Of a stretch of DNA of 64,000 nt, positions 39,434-42,303 are shown piece after piece (the first letter of the stretch is position 1; each line of letters starts with the position of its first letter). Position numbers and translations under genes: made by a program. The notes below the pieces were generated by a model. It saw only the letters and a list, made by a program, of their open reading frames with translations. It had not been told where the DNA came from and did not search any database. The stretch lies in NCBI RefSeq assembly GCF_030252345.1, contig NZ_CP126980.1, positions 8,565,501 through 8,629,500 of the forward strand, written 5' to 3'. Origin of the DNA: Actinoplanes oblitus (GTDB taxonomy: Bacteria; Actinomycetota; Actinomycetes; Mycobacteriales; Micromonosporaceae).

Positions 39434-40429
39434 ATGACGATCACCGACGAGCCGGTCGAGACGCGGCCGGCCCGCCGCGGAGTCGGCACGGTTCTGCTCT
39501 GGCTGCTGCTGATCCCGGCGCTCTGCTGGGCGGTGCTCCGGCTCGGCGGGTGGGATCGGGGGCCGCTGATCCCGCTGATGGCCTTCACGCCGTACGTCGC
39601 GGTCTGGTCCCTGGTTCCGCTGCTCCTGACCTTGGTCCTCCGGCGCCGGGCGGCGGCAGCGGTGGCTGCCGTGGTCGCCGCGACGCTCGCGGCGTGCGTG
39701 CTGCCGCGCGCCCTGCCGGACCTCGACAGGGGTGCCACCCGGGGTGTCACGCTGCACGTGATGACGTCGAACCTGCTGTTCGGCGGCGCCGACGCGAGCG
39801 AGGTCGTCCGGCTGGTGCGGGAGAACGACGTGGCGGTGCTGGCCGTGCAGGAGTTCGCGCCGCGGGCGGAGACGTCGCTGGCCGCGGCCGGTCTCGGCGA
39901 GCTGCTCCCCTACCACCAGCTGGCGCCCGAGGAGGGGGCCAGCGGCACCGGGCTGTACTCGCGGTACCCGTTGGCCGGGCCGGACGCGAAACGCAACAGC
40001 GGCGGCTTCCAGCAGACCTGGGGGACGATCCAGCCGCCCGGCGCGGTCCCGGTCCAGATCGAGTCGGTGCATCCGCTCGCACCGTCCGCTCCGGACACCT
40101 ACCACGGCTGGCGCACCGACCTGGCGAACGAGCCGAGGTCGGACGGCGACAACCCGCGGCGGGTCCTGCTCGGCGACTTCAACGCGACGCTCGACCACGG
40201 CCCGCTGCGTGAACTGATCTCGCACGGGTACCGCGACGCGGCGGACACCGTCGGCAAGGGCCTGATCGGTACCTGGGGACCCTACGACGGGGACCCGATT
40301 CCGCCGGTGACCATCGATCATGTACTGGTCGACGAAGAGATCGGGGTACGAGACGTGTCGGTGCACGACGTACGGAACTCCGACCACCGCGCGGTGGTCG
40401 CCGAACTGACCCTGCCGGCGGCGTCATGA
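39434..40429 (+). CDS. membrane-anchored endonuclease/exonuclease/phosphatase protein
   Basis: 331 residues, start MTITDEPVETRPARR. Three hydrophobic segments (about residues 18-95: TVLLWLLLIPALCWAVLRLGG, LIPLMAFTPYVAVWSLVPLLLTLVL, AVAAVVAATLAACVLP) anchor it, and the EEP domain follows outside: HVMTSNLLFGG, LAVQEFAP, LLGDFNATLDH, VTIDHVLVDE and NSDHRAVVAELTL. All metal and catalytic residues of the fold seem present. The substrate may be a phosphodiester in a lipid or nucleic acid; it cannot be named. Confidence 0.85.
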   Translation: MTITDEPVETRPARRGVGTVLLWLLLIPALCWAVLRLGGWDRGPLIPLMAFTPYVAVWSLVPLLLTLVLRRRAAAAVAAVVAATLAACVLPRALPDLDRGATRGVTLHVMTSNLLFGGADASEVVRLVRENDVAVLAVQEFAPRAETSLAAAGLGELLPYHQLAPEEGASGTGLYSRYPLAGPDAKRNSGGFQQTWGTIQPPGAVPVQIESVHPLAPSAPDTYHGWRTDLANEPRSDGDNPRRVLLGDFNATLDHGPLRELISHGYRDAADTVGKGLIGTWGPYDGDPIPPVTIDHVLVDEEIGVRDVSVHDVRNSDHRAVVAELTLPAAS

Positions 40430-40962
40430 CCGCCGTCGTCCGCGCGCTGACCCTGGAGGACGTGCCGGAGCTGACCGCGGTGCTGGTCGGCACCCGGGAC
40501 TACCTGGCGCCCTGGGACCCGATCCGGGACGAGAGCTTCTACACCGAGGCGGGCCAGCGCCAGGTGATCACCGACCTGCTGCGCGCCGGCAACGCGCTGC
40601 CGCACGTGATCCTCGACGAGGGCCGGATCGCCGGCCGGATCAACCTGAACAGCATCATCCGCGGCCCGTTCCAGTCGGCCAGCCTCGGGTACTGGGTGGC
40701 GGAGCGGCACGCCGGGCGGGGGCTCGCCTCGGCCGCCGTCGCCGAGGTGCTGCGGCTCGCGTTCACCGAGTACGGGCTGCACCGGGTGGAGGCGGGCACG
40801 CTGCTGCACAACGAGCGGTCGCAGCGGGTGCTGCTGAAGAACGGGTTCGAGCGGTTCGGGATGGCGCCCCGCTACCTCCACATCGCCGGTGAGTGGCAGG
40901 ACCACTACCTGTACCAGATCGTCGCGGAAAACTGGTTGGCCGCCAAAAACCGTGCCGTCTAG
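40426..40962 (+). CDS. RimJ/RimL-like GNAT acetyltransferase
   Basis: 178 residues, coupled to the preceding gene by ATGA. The RimJ pattern is clear: LGYWVAERHAGRGLASAAVAEVLRLAFTEYGLHRVEAGTLLHNERSQRVLLKNGFERFGMAPRYLHIAGEWQDH. RimJ acetylates ribosomal protein S5 in E. coli; related proteins act on other amines. Its last codons contain the promoter of the thrS leader (40936-40965). Confidence 0.88.
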   Translation: MTAVVRALTLEDVPELTAVLVGTRDYLAPWDPIRDESFYTEAGQRQVITDLLRAGNALPHVILDEGRIAGRINLNSIIRGPFQSASLGYWVAERHAGRGLASAAVAEVLRLAFTEYGLHRVEAGTLLHNERSQRVLLKNGFERFGMAPRYLHIAGEWQDHYLYQIVAENWLAAKNRAV

Positions 40963-40965
40963 TCT
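40936..40965 (+). promoter_or_regulatory. promoter of the thrS-like leader
   Basis: -35 TTGGCC (40936-40941), 18-bp spacer, -10 TAGTCT (40960-40965), lying inside the end of the acetyltransferase gene. The leader ATG at 40973 is only 7 nt downstream of the -10 box, so transcript and ORF should start together (leaderless). Confidence 0.65.
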
Positions 40966-40972
40966 CTGCGGC

Positions 40973-41029
40973 ATGCACAGCAGCGTGAACACGACCACGC
41001 CGGGACACCCCGGCGTCGAGTCGCGCTGA
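40973..41029 (+). CDS. thrS leader peptide with three consecutive Thr codons
   Basis: 18 codons: MHSSVNTTTPGHPGVESR. The run ACG ACC ACG (40991-40999) lies just before the first hairpin of the attenuator. There is no ribosome-binding site, as expected for a leaderless start. This is the layout of a ribosome-mediated attenuator that senses charged tRNA-Thr: poor charging stalls the ribosome on the Thr codons. Confidence 0.75.
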   Translation: MHSSVNTTTPGHPGVESR

Positions 41030-41060
41030 CTTCACGACCCCGGGCGATCCGCTCGGGGTC
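40997..41060 (+). terminator. thrS attenuator hairpins
   Basis: Hairpin 1: ACGCCGGG / CCCGGCGT, loop ACAC (40997-41016), overlapping the last Thr codon. Hairpin 2 (terminator-like): GACCCCGGGC / GCTCGGGGTC, loop GATCC (41036-41060), followed by TTCT. The 3' arm of hairpin 1 (CCCGG, 41009-41013) can instead pair with CCGGG (41040-41044) and would then disrupt hairpin 2. The weak T run after hairpin 2 is the least convincing part. Confidence 0.65.
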
Positions 41061-41100
41061 TTCTGGGTCGATCGCGCGGGGCCTCACCAAGGAGACCCTG

Positions 41101-42303
41101 ATGATCGACCATCGCCGGCTCGGCCGCGAACTGGACCTCTTCGACTCCGATCCGCTGATCGGCGCCGGCCTGCCGTTCTGGCTGCCGGCCGGCGCGGCGG
41201 CCCGCCACGAGGTGGAGTCCTATCTCCACGAGCTGGAGCGCCGCAACGGCTACCAGCACGTCTACTCCCCCGTCATGGGGAAACGGCAGATGTACGAGTT
41301 GTCCGGCCACTGGGCGAACTTCGCCGACGACATGTTCCCGCCGATGCCGGTCGGCGACGACGAGCTGGTGCTGCGGCCCAGCATGTGCCCGCATCACGCG
41401 CTGATCTTCAAGGCCCGCCAGCGGTCGTACCGGGACCTGCCGTTACGCGTCGCCGAGCTGGGCCAGATGTACCGGCAGGAGCGCTCCGGCGTGCTCGGCG
41501 GGCTGTCCCGGGTCCGTTCGATAGCGCTCAACGACGCGCACCTGTTCTGTGCTCCCGAGCAGGCCGCCGCGGAGGTCGCCGGGGTGCTGCGGCTGATGCG
41601 GGAGGCGCACGCGGCGCTCGGCCTGCGGCCGGCCTCCTACCGGCTGTCGCTGCGCGGGCCGGGGAAGGACTACGGCGGTTCGGAGCAGGGGTGGGCGGCA
41701 TCGGAACGGTTGCTGCGGGGCGCGCTCGCTGACGAGGGCTTCGCGTACGCGGTGGCGCCCGGTGAAGCCGCCTTCTACGGTCCGAAGATCGACGTACAGG
41801 TACGGGACGCGGCCGGCCGGGAGTGGACCATCGCCACCGTCCAGATCGATGACCACCAGCCGCAGCGGTTCGGGCTGTCGTACATCGACGCGTCGGGGGC
41901 GAAGGCAAGGCCGGTGATGGTGCACCGGAGCCTGGCGGGATCGATGGAGCGCCTGTTCGGGCAGCTGATCGAGGAGCACGGCGGGGCGTTCCCGGTCTGG
42001 TACGCCCCGGTCCAGGTGGCCGTGCTGCCGGTCGGCGCCGAGTCGTCGTTCGCCGCGTCGGCCGTCGCCGCGGGACTGCGCGCCGCGGAGTTGCGGGACG
42101 GCTCGCTCGGTGCCCGGATCAGGGCGGCGGCGAAGGTGCCGTACCTCGCGGTGATCGGCGCCCGGGAGGCCGAGGCGGGCCTGGTGTCGCTGCGGCTGCG
42201 GGACGGACGGCGGCTGGACCCGATGCCGGAGGCGGCGGCGATCGCCCTGATCAGCGCGGTCGCCGCCGCCCGGAAACCGGATCAGCTCCTGCTCAACCCG
42301 TAG
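41101..42303 (+). CDS. thrS: short threonyl-tRNA synthetase without TGS and editing domains
   Basis: 400 residues against about 640-690 for standard ThrRS. The protein begins at the catalytic core (residues 1-290), and the anticodon-binding domain follows (about 297-400). Zn ligands are kept: Cys96 in LRPSMCPHH, His147 in NDAHLFC and His275 in PVMVHRSLAGSMERL. Motif 2 is PLRVAELGQMYRQERSG. Position Gln253 aligns without gaps to E. coli Leu489, a borrelidin-contacting residue, and the neighbour F487 is Asp251. With an attenuator in front, this is a catalytically intact second ThrRS, likely for drug resistance or low threonine; the standard thrS is expected elsewhere in the genome. RBS AAGGAG lies 7 bases before the ATG. 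Confidence 0.85.
   Translation: MIDHRRLGRELDLFDSDPLIGAGLPFWLPAGAAARHEVESYLHELERRNGYQHVYSPVMGKRQMYELSGHWANFADDMFPPMPVGDDELVLRPSMCPHHALIFKARQRSYRDLPLRVAELGQMYRQERSGVLGGLSRVRSIALNDAHLFCAPEQAAAEVAGVLRLMREAHAALGLRPASYRLSLRGPGKDYGGSEQGWAASERLLRGALADEGFAYAVAPGEAAFYGPKIDVQVRDAAGREWTIATVQIDDHQPQRFGLSYIDASGAKARPVMVHRSLAGSMERLFGQLIEEHGGAFPVWYAPVQVAVLPVGAESSFAASAVAAGLRAAELRDGSLGARIRAAAKVPYLAVIGAREAEAGLVSLRLRDGRRLDPMPEAAAIALISAVAAARKPDQLLLNP

Follow-up and report, generated by a model that had tools for sequence, protein, structure and literature searches.

Genes and features of the locus

The window, the whole 64,000-nt stretch of Actinoplanes oblitus DNA analysed here, contains a short thrS gene at 41101..42303, on the forward strand like all the leader features described below. 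According to profile and domain comparison, its 400-aa product is composed of the class II core and the anticodon-binding domain of threonyl-tRNA synthetase (ThrRS). It aligns to positions 172-553 of 565 in the ThrRS family profile, and the TGS and editing domains were absent from it in the domain comparison. The Cys and two His that we take to be the zinc ligands of ThrRS are retained in an alignment with S. aureus ThrRS. A second ThrRS, of 669 aa, is encoded elsewhere in the same genome. The short gene was found in 57 of the 67 genomes of the genus, and 261 of 354 genomes of the family matched the short ThrRS at E <= 1e-110, a cut-off more stringent than the E-values reached by the full-length paralogue.

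Upstream of thrS are located an ORF of the endonuclease/exonuclease/phosphatase family (39434-40429), with a weak, sub-cutoff resemblance to VanJ, and a GNAT ORF (40426-40962). A -35-like TTGGCC (40936..40941) lies within the 3' end of the GNAT ORF and is followed, after an 18-nt spacer, by a -10-like TAGTCT (40960..40965), 7 nt before an ATG at 40973. The TAG of this box is also the stop codon of the GNAT ORF, an overlap seemingly present in near relatives too. The ATG opens a leader ORF of 18 codons, MHSSVNTTTPGHPGVESR plus stop (40973..41029, stop codon at 41027-41029), in which three Thr codons, ACG ACC ACG (40991..40999), were designated as the putative sensor from codon counts across leaders.

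Folding predicted hairpin 1 (40997..41016), with an 8-bp stem between segment 1 (ACGCCGGG, 40997-41004) and segment 2 (CCCGGCGT, 41009-41016). The second hairpin, the terminator-like hairpin T (41036..41060), has a 10-bp stem between segment 3 (GACCCCGGGC, 41036-41045) and segment 4 (GCTCGGGGTC, 41051-41060), and comes from both folding and covariation. TTCT stands directly 3' of hairpin T, with 4 T in 8 nt. When re-read from the sequence, the positions that an earlier sequence-only reading of this DNA had assigned to the promoter-like boxes, the ATG, the 18-codon ORF, the three Thr codons and both hairpins were all correct.

Conservation of the leader peptide

One hundred upstream regions were picked by ThrRS homology: 57 from the genus, 40 from other members of the family and three outsiders (one Amycolatopsis and two Streptomyces). 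All 100 of these short-thrS upstream regions contained an in-frame leader, 97 recognized by script and three by hand anchors (L162, L167 and L182, with variant codons or stem). In 155 leaders a -10-like box precedes the start by 6-8 nt, a spacing that is partly by construction, since the script required a -10-like box and an in-frame start and the set of 155 was likewise assembled by demanding such a box. Strictly box-linked starts numbered 100 in 95 homology-chosen leaders, 98 in frame and two out of frame.

Thr occupied all three sensor positions in 94 of the 100 leaders, two positions in five and one position in one. Repeated Thr codons in a conserved frame, as in a leader-peptide attenuator, are present at the sequence level, with the translation being predicted. 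At the first two positions, both outside hairpin 1, ACG made up 149 of the 195 Thr codons, compared with 27 of 101 Thr codons in five neighbouring genes of the window, where ACC is used more; ACG is perhaps the more sensitive codon for sensing. Four leaders (L034, L066, L071 and L026) have one or two Thr codons only, and these are possibly decaying or retuned sensors.

Distribution of the leader

Of 394 genomes of the class, 69 contained a core pattern, ACGACGACGCCGG-N4-8-CCCGGCG, and 2 contained the reversed pattern, so that a chance origin was rejected. There were 71 pattern places, of which 70 were taken further (G496:C36 was left out). Fifty-six of them passed the leader script and 13 were not leaders; the remaining one, L114, is also a leader, but its start region is longer, so that it was lost to the length limit of the script and excluded from all counts. 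Ten of the 13 rejected places (L077-L079, L084, L088, L089 and L102-L105) adjoin no ThrRS, and L115, L128 and L146 were unlike a leader by eye. All 20 accepted leaders among the first 30 pattern loci adjoin a ThrRS.

A covariance model was built from 31 leaders, in part from the genus. All 57 genus genomes that carry the short gene scored E <= 1.7e-16 with this model; in the ten that lack the gene the best E was 1.8e-7 to 1.7e-3, at background level. Second matches within the genus were as strong as E 7.5e-10 (G004), so the model score alone is no proof below that strength. In another family, 33 of 61 genomes matched at E <= 1e-9. Thirty loci of that family were kept: 20 had a short ThrRS, eight a full-length ThrRS and one a short partial match (L251), and at the shorter locus L245 no ThrRS was found. 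The leader precedes a full-length ThrRS in place of the short one at L253 and L256-L262; L143 coincides with L258, and L145 is similar by eye. A search of the phylum gave weak matches at E <= 0.001 in 124 of 296, which were judged mostly background, as only 8 of the 30 kept loci adjoin a ThrRS, the window among the eight. Two loci of this search, L209 and L210, have the leader adjoining a ThrRS of 49% and 53% identity, and the hairpin-1 stem of L210 deviates yet stays complementary by eye. Judged from sequence, the leader arrangement is present in many actinobacteria, and the leaderless-looking leader and its Thr codons, first proposed for the window, recur well outside the genus.

In E. coli, ThrRS binds its own thrS mRNA and represses it by feedback, and the hairpins of the present leader might be such an operator in place of an attenuator. 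The position of the leader before both short and full-length ThrRS genes would suit this explanation. An operator has no need of the conserved frame and Thr codons, however, and the short enzyme is without the N-terminal domains, so we consider operator feedback scarcely credible. T-box control was searched for with Rfam, which returned no relevant match and no T-box, only two sub-threshold matches to P13 (E 6 and 8.8).

RNA structures of the leader

Folding of the 140 nt that start at the leader ATG gave -79.4 kcal/mol (z -6.5), and none of 200 dinucleotide shuffles was as stable. The first eight apex-side pairs of hairpin T are canonical in 142 to 155 of the 155 leaders, with several pair types. 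The sequence-only reading named compensatory changes in both hairpins as support; they are clear for T across the 155 leaders, while hairpin 1 is nearly invariant and scarcely informative, providing hardly any covariation evidence.

The same reading proposed that segment 2, the 3' arm of hairpin 1, could pair with segment 3, the 5' arm of hairpin T (2:3). In the window this pairing is possible over 5 bp (41009-41013 with 41040-41044), and it recurs beyond the genus; it is GC-rich, could arise by chance at this length, and both arms hardly vary. When segment 4 was not yet made, the 2:3 probability exceeded 0.5 in 150 of 155 leaders with the ribosome on the Thr codons and in 19 of 155 on empty RNA; a ribosome at the stop codon covers segment 2, which makes the value zero by construction. 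Of the 100 homology-chosen leaders, 99 have a segment 2 that opens with CCC, and the first C is retained in 24 of the 25 whose hairpin 1 offers it no G, a retention that predicted pairing with the GGG of T would explain. Of the mutually exclusive 1:2, 2:3 and 3:4 pairings expected of an attenuator, 3:4 covaries, and 2:3 is favoured in co-transcriptional snapshots, nearly invariant and absent at equilibrium. The sequence-only reading had allowed that the Thr run and the pairing might not be conserved in orthologues; we found that the leader, the Thr codons, the hairpins and the arm pairing all recur.

As an intrinsic terminator, hairpin T has a strong stem and mostly poor U-tracts. At least 5 T in the 8 nt from the end of the T stem were found in only 8 of 155 leaders, and a looser test (at least 5 T in any 8-nt window within 18 nt) raised this to 28 of 155. 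U-runs are present in some leaders, for example L008 and L009.

Predicted pairing beyond hairpin T and closure of the thrS start

Between hairpin T and the thrS start we found elements absent from the sequence-only reading. K (41042..41050, GGGCGATCC), composed of the GGGC of segment 3 and the T loop, was recognized by covariation. Its partner P (41066..41075) can pair through 41070-41075 with K 41044-41049, and in the minimum-energy fold 41066-41074 pairs instead with the thrS start at 41102-41110. The Shine-Dalgarno sequence AGGAGA (41090..41095) is paired at 41092-41094 in this fold, and 41096-41100 is paired as well, so that the thrS start would be closed by default.

K and P of the same leader paired better than the swapped mean in 131 of 151 leaders (p 6e-21), and the control pairing of K with the spacer before T was null (p 0.84). 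Runs of at least 8 K:P pairs were present in 93 of 155 leaders, compared with 13% after swapping. With one leader for each distinct K (39 versions), 20 draws of 2000 permutations each gave no value that reached the observed K:P mean. When the leaders were grouped, none of 5000 permutations reached it in the genus of the window, and for other families it was again none of 5000. Among the remaining genera of the window's own family the permutation share was 0.056, and K:P alone misses significance there. The swap and permutation tests lessen but do not remove the effects of relatedness, and in the permutation test K was mis-registered in L063 and L074, both of which were kept in the counts. A compensatory pair is seen in L009, which has GGGCGACCT with GGGTCGCCC, compared with GGGCAACCT with GGGTTGCCC in the close L017. 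In the window itself K:P is just 6 bp, with -12.6 kcal/mol against a swapped mean of -11.5 kcal/mol.

The Shine-Dalgarno region paired with the upstream segment better than swapped pairs in 112 and 108 of 155 leaders in two tests, and the targets of K and of the Shine-Dalgarno region overlap by at least 2 nt in 148 of 155. Although the window folds so, the upstream segment gained nothing over swapping against thrS codons 1-6 (82 of 155, p 0.18). At the level of sequence and fold, an upstream segment closes the start while a second partner competes for it, and a switch between the two pairings is predicted.

Because the T-to-P helix covaries and P is made after T, the decision would fall after RNA polymerase has passed T. 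The sequence-only reading had described the full logic of attenuation, meaning termination of transcription, and this part is not supported, given the poor U-tracts and a covarying helix from T to a later segment. Classical transcription attenuation alone would make T an intrinsic terminator and 2:3 the antiterminator, with the downstream pairing incidental or serving RNA stability. It agrees with the invariant 1-2-3-4 layout, with 2:3 in the co-transcriptional snapshots, with a very stable and covarying T and with the U-runs of leaders such as L008 and L009. Nevertheless, most leaders have poor U-tracts and the covariation of K with a segment made after T would be without reason, and we regard this explanation as unlikely. 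The conserved output probably lies in the initiation of translation, whether or not T terminates transcription as well, as suggested by the covariation of K with P, the overlap of P with the start-closing segment and the mostly poor U-tracts.

With the ribosome placed at four positions in turn, equilibrium folding gave 0.93-0.96 for T, 0.00-0.03 for K:P and 0.29-0.31 for openness of the Shine-Dalgarno sequence throughout. Since the equilibrium is identical at all ribosome positions, a switch must be kinetic. The same result would be expected if the leader were translated constitutively, merely feeding ribosomes or shaping mRNA stability and sensing no Thr; this is highly improbable in view of the Thr run, the codon skew and the conserved alternative helices.

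Proposed mechanism

Considering the conserved in-frame leaders, their co-occurrence with the short gene in the genus and the leader before full-length thrS, attenuation by the supply of Thr-tRNA is very likely. That the leader is a ribosome-mediated attenuator which senses how much charged tRNA-Thr is available and governs an auxiliary, truncated ThrRS is, from the sequence comparisons, the reading we consider likely for the locus as a whole.

The transcript would begin at or beside the leader ATG, and ribosomes would load without a Shine-Dalgarno sequence. When Thr-tRNA is ample, the folds suggest that the ribosome would reach the stop codon, T (3:4) would form, and the P segment would cover the Shine-Dalgarno sequence and the thrS start, leaving the gene off. 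When Thr-tRNA is short, a ribosome stalled on the Thr codons would cover segment 1, and segment 2 would be free for the emerging segment 3. The 2:3 pairing would then delay T and, by a predicted hand-over from 2:3 to K:P, leave K for P, so that the thrS start is freed and the gene is on. A hairpin T with a usable U-tract may terminate transcription as well. Because the signal would be uncharged tRNA-Thr, failure of the main ThrRS should also trigger the response, which fits a backup enzyme.

In a bolder reading, which we judge slightly less likely than not, T is mainly not a terminator but a lock hiding K, a Shine-Dalgarno-like decoy; the stalled leaderless ribosome would keep the lock open, K would capture the start-closing P, and the auxiliary ThrRS would be translated. 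If this is true, such leaders would be widespread leaderless sensors for the charging of tRNA, with translation as their output, and would act on short and full-length ThrRS genes alike. The leader provides a well-covarying case of leader-peptide control in which the decision is seemingly made at translation initiation and not at a U-tract terminator. In many actinobacteria it would also link an auxiliary ThrRS that has no editing domain to the sensing of Thr-tRNA charging, and the role of the enzyme becomes testable.

Comparison with known systems

In Streptomyces, an auxiliary TrpRS is controlled by attenuation. The inducible auxiliary TrpRS of Streptomyces, involved in indolmycin resistance (PMC6804068), resembles the short ThrRS as an auxiliary synthetase serving as backup, with Trp there.

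The closest case is a leaderless thrL before thrS in Streptomyces lividans TK24, described in 2021 with unclear termination (PMC8079986). There, a leaderless leader peptide of 18 aa containing a Thr pair (MKRVRPFLETTPGFVPAR) precedes a thrS and is very like L121 (MKRAQPFLTTTPDSVPAR), a resemblance at the level of the peptides. RNA-seq support for a leaderless start concerns this S. lividans counterpart only, and the paper reports two Thr, one hairpin and no switch structure, unlike the leaders described here. In our literature search PMC8079986 was the only source to report a leader peptide before thrS in this group; Wolf 2017 on Actinoplanes, cited there for attenuators, may contain the present leader. 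The excerpts of PMC2965389 and PMC4833913 mention no actinobacterial thrS leader, and in that of PMC1262725 no conserved structures are given for pathways besides Trp, Cys, Leu and the ileS T-boxes. Within the literature searched, the kind of system is known and one member is already in print; what is new is how widely it occurs, the switch helix and the connection with a truncated enzyme.

The trp attenuators of Streptomyces and Corynebacterium (PMC1262725) similarly have runs of the sensed codon and antiterminator and terminator arms, but their terminators are described as followed by poly-U tracts, whereas here poor U-tracts prevail, along with an additional helix beyond T. The Cys-rich leaderless small ORFs of mycobacteria (PMC4633059) are also actinobacterial upstream ORFs with a run of the sensed codon and proposed attenuation, differing in having Cys instead of Thr and other target genes. 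For the enzyme, the parallel is ThrRS T2 of Anabaena (PMC4787780), a second ThrRS with impaired proofreading that is induced when T1 fails in low zinc; the trigger there is low zinc, and the excerpt consulted mentions no leader peptide. Use of a second ThrRS on failure of the first in low zinc is also described in PMC9437257.
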